This document shows positions 56,708 through 63,339 of a stretch of 63,543 nt of DNA, piece by piece. Numbering within the stretch: position 1 is the first letter of the stretch; the number at the start of each line of letters is the position of its first letter. Below the pieces are notes generated by a model, which was given only the letters and a program-made list of their open reading frames with translations, was not told the origin of the DNA and ran no database searches. The stretch lies in NCBI GenBank assembly GCA_017616655.1, contig JAFZXU010000037.1, forward strand, positions 1-63,543, given 5' to 3'. The translations under genes and the position numbers were made by a program. The DNA is from Bacteroidales bacterium (lineage in GTDB: Bacteria > Bacteroidota > Bacteroidia > Bacteroidales > UBA932).

Positions 56708-57010
56708 CTATTCCACCTCGAAAAGGTTCAGGAATCCGGTCATCATGAATACGCTCCGGATCGAGTCGTTCATCCCCTTGATGACCACCCTGCCGCCTTT
56801 CGCCTGAGAGGCCTTGCGTATCGTAAGGAAGGTCCGGAGACCGGAGCTGCTGATGTAGCTCATCTCTTCGCAATCGAGAATGATGCTCTTGTCAGCCTCC
56901 GCGAGGAGGGGTTCAACGGCTTTGTTGACATCCATGAATGCAGCTGTGTCGAACCTCCCGATGAAGGAAATGATAATTGTCTCTTCCTGCCTGTTGATTT
57001 TGATTTCCAT
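56708..57010 (-). CDS. STAS-domain anti-sigma factor antagonist (RsbV/SpoIIAA-like)
   Basis: 100 residues, one STAS domain. MEIKINRQEETIIISFIGRF gives the first strands; YISSSGLRTFLTI (52-64) contains the phosphorylatable serine region, Ser56 aligning with SpoIIAA Ser58 (SSG). In the usual switch the dephosphorylated form binds the RsbW-type kinase and frees its target. It is the last gene of the five-gene alarmone/partner-switch operon, six bases after the kinase. Confidence 0.9.
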   Translation of the reverse strand: MEIKINRQEETIIISFIGRFDTAAFMDVNKAVEPLLAEADKSIILDCEEMSYISSSGLRTFLTIRKASQAKGGRVVIKGMNDSIRSVFMMTGFLNLFEVE

Positions 57011-57016
57011 ATAATG

Positions 57017-57442
57017 TCAGATTTTTTTTGTCATTGTAAGGATATTCCTGCCGTTCGATCGCCTGTATGATACAGAATCCATAAGAGTCCGGATCAGATG
57101 GATGCCCAGGCCGCCCACCTTCCGCTCCTCCACGCCGAGGGTGGTGTCGGCCTCGGGGGCCTCGACGGGATTGAAGGGGGTGCCGGTATCCGACACGGCG
57201 AGCTCGAGGCACGATTTGCTGATTGATGCATCAATCTCGACCAGCCCTGAGGTTCCTTCCGGATAGGCATACATCATAACATTGGAGACAGCCTCCTCCA
57301 GAGCGAGATTGATGCCCATAGCCACCTCGGCAGGCATATTCATACCGGCTGTGATCTCTTCCAGGAAGGCCGGAATGGAAGGTATCTCCTTTACGTCGTT
57401 ATGGAGTACGAGGCGGCGTTTCCTCACTGATTTGCAACACAC
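57017..57442 (-). CDS. RsbW/SpoIIAB-type anti-sigma serine kinase
   Basis: 141 residues, GHKL ATPase fold. N box NLALEEAVSNVMMYAYP, G1 box VSDTGTPFNP, G2 region KVGGLGIHLIRTLMD. These kinases phosphorylate a STAS partner and hold a sigma factor or another target. The start is GTG at 57442 (CAC on the plus strand), four bases after the APH-like gene. No sigma factor gene is nearby. Confidence 0.9.
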   Translation of the reverse strand: MCCKSVRKRRLVLHNDVKEIPSIPAFLEEITAGMNMPAEVAMGINLALEEAVSNVMMYAYPEGTSGLVEIDASISKSCLELAVSDTGTPFNPVEAPEADTTLGVEERKVGGLGIHLIRTLMDSVSYRRSNGRNILTMTKKI

Positions 57443-57446
57443 GGTT

Positions 57447-58283
57447 CTATCTCAAGATTGATTCCAGAGCGGCACGGAACTCCGGCATAGGCCGGCGCGT
57501 ATCACGCTCGATTATTATGGTTTTAAGTCCGGCGAAGGGCCGCACCTCCTCCTCGATGGAGGAAAGAGGCCTGTCGGATCCGAAATAAGCGGGAGCGAAG
57601 GCTTCCCAAAAACGGCGGGCGGTGGCGTTGTCCATATGGAACGCTTCACGGGTGAACGACTCCAGGTTCAGGTTTCCGGTAAGATAGACCATTCCGAGGT
57701 CGAACAGCGGATTGCCGCAGCAGAAGTCGCCCAAATCTATGAAGTAGCGCTTATCGCCCACGAAGATGGCATTTCCGAACTGGAGGTCGCCGTGAAGGGC
57801 GTTGTCCGTATCGGGAACGTCGGAGATGAAACGCTCCAGACGCTCCTTTTCAGGAGAAGTGAAGAAGGGATTTTCCTCCAGAAGGCGGAAATAGTTCTCT
57901 TTCACGTCGTTGAACTGGCTCCTGTCAAGAATGACCGAGTGAAGGCTGCGGCACATTTCCGCGAACTCCTCAGCATAGCGGACCACCTGGGAGGGGTCGT
58001 CACCGACTGCGCGGGCGTATGAGACCTTTCCTTCGATCCTTCGGAACCGGATGCCGTACCTTCCGTCGGGAGTGACGACATAATCTCCCGGTTCAGGAGT
58101 GGGAATGCCGATTTCATATGCCTTGCGGGCCATCTGCATCTCCTGAAGCGGCTGCGTCACCTTACCGGGAAAGTAGAGTTTGAGCATAACCGAAGGATTG
58201 CTCCTGTGATTGTAGCTCTCACCGTTGGCGCCCTCTCCGGCCGCAACGTAGTCATTCATATCTATTAGGACAGGGTCATTCAT
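57447..58283 (-). CDS. Aminoglycoside-phosphotransferase-like kinase (TIGR02172-like)
   Basis: 278 residues. Kinase-like fold: ATP-lysine in SVMLKLYFPGKV, HGDLQFGNAIF (Brenner motif with catalytic Asp and Asn) and IDLGDFCCGNPLFDLGMVYL (metal-binding Asp). The family, as I recall, is expanded in Fibrobacter and gut Bacteroidota under TIGR02172, with no known substrate. The ATG at 58283 overlaps the HD gene by four bases (ATGA), so the two are translated together. Resistance to aminoglycosides is possible for the fold but not suggested by context. Confidence 0.82.
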   Translation of the reverse strand: MNDPVLIDMNDYVAAGEGANGESYNHRSNPSVMLKLYFPGKVTQPLQEMQMARKAYEIGIPTPEPGDYVVTPDGRYGIRFRRIEGKVSYARAVGDDPSQVVRYAEEFAEMCRSLHSVILDRSQFNDVKENYFRLLEENPFFTSPEKERLERFISDVPDTDNALHGDLQFGNAIFVGDKRYFIDLGDFCCGNPLFDLGMVYLTGNLNLESFTREAFHMDNATARRFWEAFAPAYFGSDRPLSSIEEEVRPFAGLKTIIIERDTRRPMPEFRAALESILR

Positions 58284-58867
58284 TTTTTGCCGAATACCTT
58301 GTTTATCAAATGCTCGAACTCTCTGAAGGCATCCGTGTCGGAGAGCTCCCTGAGGGAATCCGCAAGTCCGCGGTAATGCCATTCGTGTTCGGAACGCTCT
58401 TTCACGTGGAAGAGATTCCAGAGGGAATCGCCCACCTTCTCGTAATCCCGGGCTATAGCCCTCATATTTGAGAGTTTGTCCCCTATCGCCACTATCTTCA
58501 CATCGCGCGGAGCCGATGCCAGTTTCTCGATTGCCTTCTGCTTGCGGAAATGCCAGGAGAGGCTTTCATCCTGCTCGGCGACCTCCACGTCGGTCTCCTT
58601 CTCCACTATGTCGGCTATCCTGTCGCCGAATGCGGCGCGGATATCATCCGCCGTAAACGGGGTGTCCTCCACCACGTCGTGAAGCGCCGCTGCGGCCAGA
58701 AGCTCCTGATCCGGGGTGATGGTGGCCACTATGGCCACCGCCTCCAGCGGATGTACTATGTAAGGGAAGCCCTTTCCCCTCCGTTCAATACCGGAATGCG
58801 CCCTTACGGCGAATCCTATCGCCCTGTCAAGCAGTTCCGTGTCGATATGTCCCTTGTCCTTTCCCAT
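58280..58867 (-). CDS. Stand-alone RelA/SpoT-type HD (p)ppGpp hydrolase (small alarmone hydrolase)
   Basis: 195 residues. The residues known to form the hydrolase site of RelSeq (R44, H53, H77, D78, E81, D82, D144, N148) have counterparts at R30, H39, H63, D64, E67, D68, D130 and N134 with identical spacing. Motifs: YIVHPLEAV, ALHDVVEDT, GDKLSNMRAI. No synthetase, TGS or ACT domain. It should remove the 3' pyrophosphate from ppGpp with Mn2+. Sits four bases after the synthetase gene. A role as neutraliser of that synthetase is plausible. Confidence 0.88.
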   Translation of the reverse strand: MGKDKGHIDTELLDRAIGFAVRAHSGIERRGKGFPYIVHPLEAVAIVATITPDQELLAAAALHDVVEDTPFTADDIRAAFGDRIADIVEKETDVEVAEQDESLSWHFRKQKAIEKLASAPRDVKIVAIGDKLSNMRAIARDYEKVGDSLWNLFHVKERSEHEWHYRGLADSLRELSDTDAFREFEHLINKVFGKK

Positions 58868-58871
58868 ACCG

Positions 58872-59984
58872 TTACTTCTTTTTATTCATAAATGGAAGAT
58901 CTGCAGTCTGTTCCATAACCATGTCGGCCATCACTTCGTTTGCGGGGTTCGGTCCGTTCAAGGCATCGAACAGATACTTCAGGCCGGCCTTTCCGCCGCC
59001 GGAACCGAGGATGAAGGCTATGCATAGATTCTGGGGCCCTATCGAAGAGGAAATAATGTCGATATCCGTCACTCCCATCTGGTAGCAGGCAATCTGGTAA
59101 GCCGCATCCGACCATTTGCGGATGAAACTGTCCACATCACCGAGGGTGGAGAAGCGGAAAAGCTTGAATACCTGAAGGAAATTCAGGAGCGAAACCTCGT
59201 GGATCTCGGCCTGGTTGATAGCCGCTATGCGCCTGTTCAGGGGGCGGAACGGCTCCAGCATAAGATAACTGCGGAAGGAATCGCCGTCCAGAGGTACCTC
59301 GCTGAGGTTTCCGGAGGCCACCATAGACTGTATCTTGCGACGGTAGTCGGCTATTTCCACACGGATGCGGCTGAACTCGTCGTCCACCAATTCGAGCATT
59401 CCGGCCAGACGGCTCAGATTGCGCAGATAGCCCTTGGGGACCTCGAAACCTGACTTGTAGCCGATATCGTGGTTCATATTTGCCCAGGCGTGCTGGAGGA
59501 CGGTGCGCATCTGCACCTCGAAGCGGACATCGTTGAGTTCGGGATACTCGTCGCTCTTGTAGACATTCTTGGGGATGCGGCAGATGTAGTGCAGGGAGAG
59601 ATAGCCGAAACTGTCTATCTCGTGCAACTTTCGCTTATCCACCGAGTTATCCCAATCTATGTCGAAGTAACGCTCAACCAGGGAAGCCACCTTATCGACG
59701 TCGTCTGCATAGAAGGTGACCACCCTCAGGCCGACTATGTCGGTCAAATCCAGCACGGAGTTGTATTTGGCGCCTTTGAGAGCAAGTTTTCCCGCCAGCG
59801 AATTCCTGGTCTTGACCCTCTGCTCCACGGCGGCTACGATGATGCCGGCCTCTTCGAAGAAACCGCGGAGCTTCTCCTGAAGCGCCGGAGCCATCTTTGA
59901 AAAGAGCGGAAAGAGCCTGTCGTACTCCTCCAATATCGCCTCGCAGTGGGGGTCGAGGTTGTATTCAAAATTGTTGATGTCCAC
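58872..59984 (-). CDS. Stand-alone RelA/SpoT-type (p)ppGpp synthetase domain protein
   Basis: 370 residues. RelA/SpoT synthetase motifs at about 60-180: TDIVGLRVVTFYADDVDKV (D82, D94, D95), SFGYLSLHYICRIPK (Y128, H132, with Leu for the usual Arg/Gln), RFEVQMRTVLQHAWANMNHD (E156, Q158, H165). No HD domain precedes and no TGS/ACT follows; instead about 190 residues of mixed helix (GYLRNLSRLAGMLELVDDEF; FLQVFKLFRFSTLGDVDSFI) form an unrecognised C-terminal part. Expected to move pyrophosphate from ATP to GDP/GTP, or to tRNA if of the toxSAS type. Start is GTG at 59984. Confidence 0.88.
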   Translation of the reverse strand: MDINNFEYNLDPHCEAILEEYDRLFPLFSKMAPALQEKLRGFFEEAGIIVAAVEQRVKTRNSLAGKLALKGAKYNSVLDLTDIVGLRVVTFYADDVDKVASLVERYFDIDWDNSVDKRKLHEIDSFGYLSLHYICRIPKNVYKSDEYPELNDVRFEVQMRTVLQHAWANMNHDIGYKSGFEVPKGYLRNLSRLAGMLELVDDEFSRIRVEIADYRRKIQSMVASGNLSEVPLDGDSFRSYLMLEPFRPLNRRIAAINQAEIHEVSLLNFLQVFKLFRFSTLGDVDSFIRKWSDAAYQIACYQMGVTDIDIISSSIGPQNLCIAFILGSGGGKAGLKYLFDALNGPNPANEVMADMVMEQTADLPFMNKKK

Positions 59985-60005: not shown

Positions 60006-60053
60006 CAAAGATACAAAACAGTGCCGATAATTGAAACTTTTTGAGTACTTTTG
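60006..60053. promoter_or_regulatory. Divergent promoters: alarmone operon and nitroreductase
   Basis: TATCTTTG on the minus strand (60006-60013), 21 bases before the synthetase GTG at 59984, and TACTTTTG on the plus strand (60046-60053), six bases before the nitroreductase ATG. The 32-base gap between them is the place to look for a shared operator; I see no clear palindrome there. Confidence 0.6.
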
Positions 60054-62807: not shown

Positions 62808-63083
62808 TCATCTGTAGTGCCCAAAAACCGAAAGGACCAGGACCTCTTTTGATTCTTCATAGACCTTATAAACCAGTCGGTGTTCTTTCGTGATTCGTCT
62901 GGAGTAAACAGAGCCACCGAATCCTTTCAAAGGCTCTAATTGTCCAGTACCGGACTTGGGATGTTCTTGTAGTTCATCTATGAGACCGGCGAGTTTGTGA
63001 AGCGACAGAGGGGCTTTCTTTTGAAGCTCCTTCAAATCCTTCTTAGCGTCTTCTGTGAATACTATGGAATAACTATGCCTCAT
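62808..63083 (-). CDS. yoeB: Toxin, YoeB/RelE-type mRNA interferase
   Basis: 91 residues, YoeB family: SIVFTEDAKKDLKELQKKAP, PLKGFGGSVYSRRITKEHRL and the closing VYEESKEVLVLSVFGHYR. The catalytic pattern (Glu/Arg in the SRRI-x-x-x-HRLVY block, and His-Tyr near the C-terminus) is kept. It cuts mRNA on the ribosome when free of its antitoxin. Overlaps the antitoxin gene by 11 bases. Confidence 0.92.
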   Translation of the reverse strand: MRHSYSIVFTEDAKKDLKELQKKAPLSLHKLAGLIDELQEHPKSGTGQLEPLKGFGGSVYSRRITKEHRLVYKVYEESKEVLVLSVFGHYR

Positions 63084-63339
63084 TAATCATCCGGGCGAGG
63101 AATTCCCCGCTGCTCTCCCCTTCTTTCATCCTGCTCACCTTACCGGATTCATAATCGGCAATGCCCTGACGGATCTTTGCGTCAAGAGTGGCATGGTCTA
63201 TAAGCGTATCGCCGTCAGAGATGGGCACAAGGCGATAGCTGCCGTGAGACCTTGAAGTAATCACGACTTCGTTAATGCGCGCCAAATCAAAGTATTTCCT
63301 CTGATTGGCCCTGAACTCCCTGCTGCTGACTATAACCAT
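63073..63339 (-). CDS. yefM: Antitoxin, YefM/Phd family
   Basis: 88 residues. Phd-type N-terminal DNA-binding part (VIVSSREFRANQRKYFDLAR, then EVVITSRSHGSYRLVPI) and a flexible C-terminus that would wrap the toxin. It normally represses its own operon. A 17-bp palindrome upstream is a good operator. Confidence 0.9.
   Translation of the reverse strand: MVIVSSREFRANQRKYFDLARINEVVITSRSHGSYRLVPISDGDTLIDHATLDAKIRQGIADYESGKVSRMKEGESSGEFLARMINEA

Follow-up and report, generated by a model that had tools for sequence, protein, structure and literature searches.

In Pseudomonas aeruginosa, the co-transcribed SiaABCD genes are described as a switch in which SiaA and SiaB set the phosphorylation of SiaC, whose unphosphorylated form binds and activates the cyclase SiaD; in the same account the STAS proteins HsbA and BgrV modulate, respectively, the diguanylate cyclase HsbD and BgrR (PMC8457831). 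Among alarmone enzymes, DsRel of Treponema denticola is described as a small alarmone synthetase (SAS) with a C-terminal domain of ~180 amino acids that represses its activity, in an organism that also has a separate small alarmone hydrolase (SAH), and ATFaRel of C. marina is also named as an SAH (PMC10434055). Here, we analyse a locus of a Bacteroidales bacterium in which genes of both kinds stand together: a five-gene operon encoding an alarmone synthetase (SYN), an alarmone hydrolase (HD), an APH-fold kinase (APH), an RsbW-type serine kinase (RsbW) and a STAS protein (STAS), at positions 56708-59984 of the window, i.e., the whole stretch of 63,543 nucleotides that was analysed (contig JAFZXU010000037.1, assembly GCA_017616655.1). 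Judging from domain content and gene neighbourhood, we give somewhat better than even chances to the reading that this operon forms the output side of a partner switch governed by a membrane sensor and controlling its own alarmone pool. In the literature that we searched, no account of an alarmone synthetase as target of a partner switch came up, papers sharing these terms having been judged superficially.

Alarmone enzymes and a partner switch form a conserved module

The alarmone enzymes, the APH kinase and the partner switch constitute a real conserved module, which bears out the link proposed in the initial annotation of this DNA. Among the fetched loci that we scanned, 128 have a SYN match above 400 bits and 121 of these are distinct at 98% DNA identity; the distinct loci flanked by no less than 5 kb upstream and 6 kb downstream make up a set of 76 (the window, with 3.6 kb upstream only, falls outside it). 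Within this set, HD was found in 73 loci, APH in 68, RsbW in 71, a SpoIIE-type PP2C phosphatase in 71, a Cache domain in 69 and STAS in 70; the complete set, including the phosphatase, is present in 64 of the 76 loci. Other genes recur less often: an antiporter (25 loci), NMT1 (12), a cytidylate-kinase-like gene (9) and DAGK (8). The initial annotation had proposed conservation of the five-gene order as a check; the gene set does cluster in relatives, but its order is permuted across five families of the order Bacteroidales. The arrangement SYN-HD-APH-[Cache=PP2C=RsbW]-STAS, where the equals sign marks a fusion, is that of family f2 and the commonest in f1, whereas f81 and f79 have STAS-SYN-HD=APH and f41 has STAS-SYN-APH-HD. 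In part of the genus to which the window belongs, HD=APH and DAGK=RsbW are fused and Cache=PP2C is a gene of its own; HD=APH fusions number 11 among the 76 loci.

Own genome counted, SYN is present in 35 of 100 relatives, i.e., in 29 of the 39 other genomes of the genus, as one strong match in another genus and as four weak ones. At the family level 103 of 299 genomes match, own included and some partially; at the order level, 10 of 393 at E 1e-30 (own, eight matches close to full length and one partial); and at the phylum level, 13 of 395 at E 1e-20 (own and twelve partial). In a pattern scan of named genomes, the best 80 of at least 551 relatives were named as Bacteroidales, Bacteroidia, Bacteroidaceae or Prevotellaceae, many of them from ruminants.

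Some loci carry variants of their own. A diacylglycerol-kinase/YegS-like lipid kinase is fused to RsbW at L047 7818-9119, an arrangement common in part of the genus, and in L127 Cache=PP2C=RsbW plus STAS are tandemly duplicated behind a single SYN-HD-APH set. At L074 4017-9037 a Cache-PP2C gene and an NhaC antiporter gene overlap, and a gene of the cytidylate-kinase-like type follows two genes on; in other loci genes of this type lie between SYN and HD.

In the window, the five leftward genes (SYN, HD, APH, RsbW and STAS) have the coordinates, strand and order first assigned to them. Going from SYN to STAS the spacings are 4, -4, 4 and 6 bases, the negative value being an ATGA in which the start codon of APH overlaps the stop of HD. 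Upstream, 21 bases from the SYN start codon, lies the predicted Bacteroidales-type promoter -7 element TATCTTTG (60006-60013, minus strand), which matches TAnnTTTG. One such match is weak proof because the motif is common in the window (41 matches against 16.6 expected). Yet among loci whose module begins with SYN, 47 of 80 have it close to the SYN start, as opposed to 1 of 17 in which another module gene precedes SYN; in front of HD, taken as a control, it occurs in 10 of 93 (loci not deduplicated in these counts). This enrichment upholds the promoter of the initial annotation and argues that one transcription unit likely begins at SYN. The neighbours that we checked encode a nitroreductase, Hsp20, a 2-hydroxyacid dehydrogenase and a DUF4493/DUF6359 protein. 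About 3 kb upstream of the operon, a YoeB-type toxin gene (62808-63083, minus strand) overlaps a Phd/YefM-type antitoxin gene (63073-63339, minus strand).

Enzymes, kinases and phosphatase

SYN (58872-59984, minus strand, GTG start; 370 amino acids) matches PF04607 at E 4.7e-17 and has the conserved residue pattern and fold of RelQ/RelP, the fold appearing to resemble SAS1/SAS2 more than CapRel or FaRel2. Because it scores 62.8 bits against the YjbM (RelQ) GTP diphosphokinase equivalog, for which the cut-off is 320, it is by sequence a relative of RelQ and not its orthologue. Beyond the RelQ/RelP part, ~150 extra residues form a conserved and confidently predicted helical C-terminal domain (approximately residues 215-370; 58875-59342, minus strand), which has no convincing match to known domains and is a candidate regulatory or binding domain. 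HD (58280-58867, minus strand; 195 amino acids; HD_4 E 1.3e-19) has Lmo0812 as its best solved relative (E 7.6e-24). Its residues H39, H63, D64, E67, D68, D130 and N134 are invariant across 17 sequences; we take them to include the HD metal ligands and the ED catalytic pair, i.e., the hallmark of small alarmone hydrolases. With both active sites intact, we infer (p)ppGpp-type synthesis and hydrolysis apart from the long RelA/SpoT homologues (RSHs) of the genome.

These long enzymes (799 and 721 amino acids, each with HD, synthetase, TGS and ACT domains) account for two of the four PF04607 genes of the genome, the others being the window SYN and a second SYN on a 4.2-kb contig. The initial annotation had seen in SYN and HD the usual bifunctional Rel/SpoT split in two, an interpretation that does not hold because the genome retains two complete long RSHs. 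The second SYN, 65% identical to that of the window, belongs to a SYN-HD pair lying at one end of this short contig (L054, G000:C26:1-4212) and could represent either a paralogue or a contaminant, the genome being 93% complete with a listed contamination of 4.6%. A phage-like Bacteroides plasmid also carries an SAS gene, ~33% identical to SYN (L247 5013-6086).

APH (57447-58283, minus strand; 278 amino acids; APH E 4.8e-15) passes the TIGR02172 cut-off at the borderline, with 228.3 bits against 228.2 when the short start at 58262 is used, and its motifs HGD-x4-N and IDLxD are kept at 96-100% in 114 aligned rows. It probably modifies a small molecule or a protein that tunes the output. RsbW (57017-57442, minus strand, GTG start; 141 amino acids; HATPase_c_2 E 9.1e-28) has RsbW 6m36 as its nearest solved relative (E 2.6e-8) and shows the conserved N-, G1- and G2-box residues of GHKL serine kinases (118 rows). 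The genome has one other HATPase_c_2 protein, which by eye stands in an unrelated iron-sulfur/PHP gene group. The RsbV/SpoIIAA-like STAS protein (56708-57010, minus strand; 100 amino acids; PF01740 E 7.2e-17) is the sole STAS match in the genome. Its S55 (codon at 56846-56848, minus strand) aligns with the serine that is phosphorylated in SpoIIAA and is a serine in 100% of 118 STAS rows, making it the predicted phosphorylation site.

The partner switch had been annotated as complete. The kinase and STAS motifs are conserved, but the phosphatase, which in relatives is usually fused to RsbW, is missing from the operon. The window RsbW corresponds to the C-terminal domain of a Cache-PP2C-RsbW protein (~710-740 amino acids in most relatives); the nearest relative, G013, has a PP2C-RsbW of 471 amino acids without Cache. 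Stand-alone RsbW genes with no PP2C in the fetched stretch also occur in L041 (genome G031) and L052 (G025), each of these genomes showing SpoIIE matches on further contigs. In the window genome a single SpoIIE protein was found, encoded on contig C14: a Cache-PP2C of 588 amino acids without an RsbW domain, whose gene overlaps an NhaC-type antiporter gene. Since G013 keeps a homologue of this protein, 70% identical, near a phosphofructokinase gene 98% identical to that of C14, the phosphatase of the window switch is probably supplied in trans by the C14 protein. The APH-RsbW junction of the window may also reflect an assembly error in this metagenome-assembled genome.

What the switch may act on

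Control of a sigma factor, listed in the initial annotation among the known outputs of such switches, finds no support here: no SigB/F/G-type sigma factor of the genome exceeds its family cut-off (the best has 122 bits against 234.35; the test for sigma targets covers these classes only). A SpoIIE match above 100 bits together with a STAS-only protein occurs in 29 of 29 SYN-positive but 3 of 10 SYN-negative genomes of the genus (p 8e-6, with no correction for relatedness or completeness). STAS adjoins SYN in G021 and G006, while RsbW and Cache-PP2C lie on another contig, a separation that probably happened in a single event. The initial annotation had the alarmone feeding the switch, which is possible; we favour the reverse direction, in which the switch would act on the alarmone enzymes, because an extracytoplasmic-type Cache domain is usually fused to PP2C and RsbW and because the Sia, Hsb and Bgr systems provide precedents.

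The domains suggest how such a circuit would work. Cache would sense an extracytoplasmic ligand, in some loci possibly brought by an NMT1-type binding protein; as the conserved motifs indicate, the attached PP2C would remove, and RsbW add, the phosphate at S55 of STAS. One form of STAS would then bind an enzyme of the module (most likely SYN, at its C-terminal domain, with the HD/APH pair as the alternative) and shift net alarmone synthesis, (p)ppGpp-type alarmones being made by SYN and destroyed by HD separately from the two long RSHs of the ribosome type. For the window genome, we presume that the C14 Cache-PP2C would act in trans. That all this amounts to a new signalling circuit, leading from an extracytoplasmic ligand through phosphorylated STAS docking on the novel SYN domain to a dedicated alarmone pool, with hydrolase and APH kinase built in and antiporters as frequent companions, is a tentative proposal to which we give less than even chances.

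Several observations weigh against control of an alarmone pool by the switch. At least one part of the module is absent in 12 of the 76 loci, and the window operon itself has the RsbW part only, without Cache and PP2C. Four genomes (G026, G035, G040 and G042) encode an NMT1/Cache-PP2C/RsbW/STAS set without SYN, and G033 has PP2C and STAS without it; SYN is thus not the sole possible output. In G026 and G035 the SYN-less switch stands beside a transporter resembling, by eye, an amino-acid ABC importer, and in f101 genomes the switch lies apart from SYN-HD. Partial correlations between distance matrices of 60 loci are highest for STAS-APH (0.44) and PP2C-RsbW (0.42), followed by SYN-APH (0.34) and STAS-SYN (0.27), which is suggestive of STAS tracking APH more than SYN and keeps APH as a candidate partner of STAS. 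Contacts of STAS with SYN, HD or APH, and of RsbW with an enzyme, are putative. As to the transporters, the ABC genes (L234, L235, L201 7844-10359), of amino-acid type by eye, encode ATPases with a long C-terminal extension, and such genes occur both beside the SYN-less switch and, in an f101 genome, directly upstream of SYN.

A rival reading is a switch whose main target lies elsewhere (a cation/proton antiporter, an ABC importer or a transcription factor), with the alarmone enzymes as a parallel co-regulated output or as a feed into the switch. The ABC transporter next to the SYN-less switch points that way, as do the overlap of the C14 Cache-PP2C gene with an antiporter gene and the K+/H+-type antiporter (Na_H_Exchanger and TrkA_C) found in 25 of the 76 loci, mostly adjoining STAS (e.g., L102 14952-16451), a possible effector. 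Yet the antiporter was not found in the other 51 loci, where SYN-HD-APH is mostly kept, and in G021 and G006 STAS stays with SYN, away from kinase and phosphatase; we regard this explanation as doubtful, if the most serious of those considered. Decay of the operon in the window genome is considerably less probable. The loss of Cache-PP2C would then leave a kinase that keeps STAS phosphorylated and the switch locked, and a progressive loss is conceivable: relatives with the window gene order usually carry Cache=PP2C=RsbW, G013 has lost Cache, and the window PP2C as well. But the RsbW and STAS motifs are intact, a separate Cache-PP2C persists on C14 with its 70% identical homologue in G013, and operons without PP2C are not unique to the window, L041 and L052 being further examples from genomes with SpoIIE matches elsewhere.

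Equally improbable in our estimation is a toxin-antitoxin or abortive-infection system, with SYN as a toxic SAS, HD as its antitoxin hydrolase and the other genes as regulators. SYN and HD are encoded side by side, as are the SAS and SAH of FaRel/ATfaRel, and a YoeB/YefM-type pair lies ~3 kb away. The PADLOC candidate family PDC-S33 also matches the synthetase domain of SYN (E 3.3e-15), but this match (54 bits) spans residues 35-168 only, a synthetase domain common to RSHs, and gives no good evidence for the anti-phage module once suggested. SYN is widely present in one family (103 of 299 genomes, some partly), its fold appears nearer to SAS1/SAS2 than to those of CapRel or FaRel2, and none of the 25 phage or 56 plasmid records that match it covers 80% of its length. 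HD, moreover, was not found beside SYN in 3 of the 76 loci (L048, L087 and L094) or, in G021 and G006, in the loci that pair SYN with STAS (HD elsewhere in these genomes was not searched for).

If control of the alarmone pool by the switch is correct, an outside chemical cue would set ppGpp-type alarmones through protein phosphorylation, beyond starved ribosomes, in many rumen and gut Bacteroidales, and partner switching would extend from sigma factors and cyclic di-GMP (c-di-GMP) to alarmones. It would also give a function to TIGR02172 kinases and to the conserved SYN domain without known relative, and a simple reconstituted system would become testable.

Comparison with known systems

The catalytic fold and conserved residue pattern of SYN are those of RelQ/RelP (SAS1/SAS2), from which it differs by its ~150 extra C-terminal residues and by its switch operon. 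DsRel, as described, shares with SYN a C-terminal domain on an SAS and a separate hydrolase, but its domain has four TPR motifs, its organism lacks a long RSH, its genes (TDE1711 and TDE1690) are not adjacent and the passages describing it mention no partner switch. The kinase, STAS and PP2C families, with their conserved motifs, are those of RsbU-RsbV-RsbW and SpoIIE-SpoIIAA-SpoIIAB; because the window genome has no SigB/F/G over the cut-off, we do not file the module with the sigma-factor switches.

A close likeness is to SiaABCD, which is described as encoding together a phosphatase, a kinase, a STAS-related protein and a nucleotide-messenger synthase. The module co-encodes sensor phosphatase, kinase, STAS and synthase in the same manner in 64 of the 76 loci, the phosphatase of the window genome being on another contig. 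As far as its description goes, the output of SiaABCD is a diguanylate cyclase (GGDEF) and its switch protein a DUF1987, where the module has an alarmone synthetase plus hydrolase and a PF01740 protein; in addition, phosphatase and kinase are usually a single polypeptide in the module, and an APH kinase is added. The module would thus work like SiaABCD without being a member of it, because a RelA_SpoT synthetase takes the place of GGDEF. The HsbA-HsbD and BgrV-BgrR pairs likewise act on c-di-GMP instead of alarmones, and the account cited mentions no hydrolase or APH partner for them. If STAS does dock on an enzyme of the module, the module would do for alarmones what these partner switches do for c-di-GMP.

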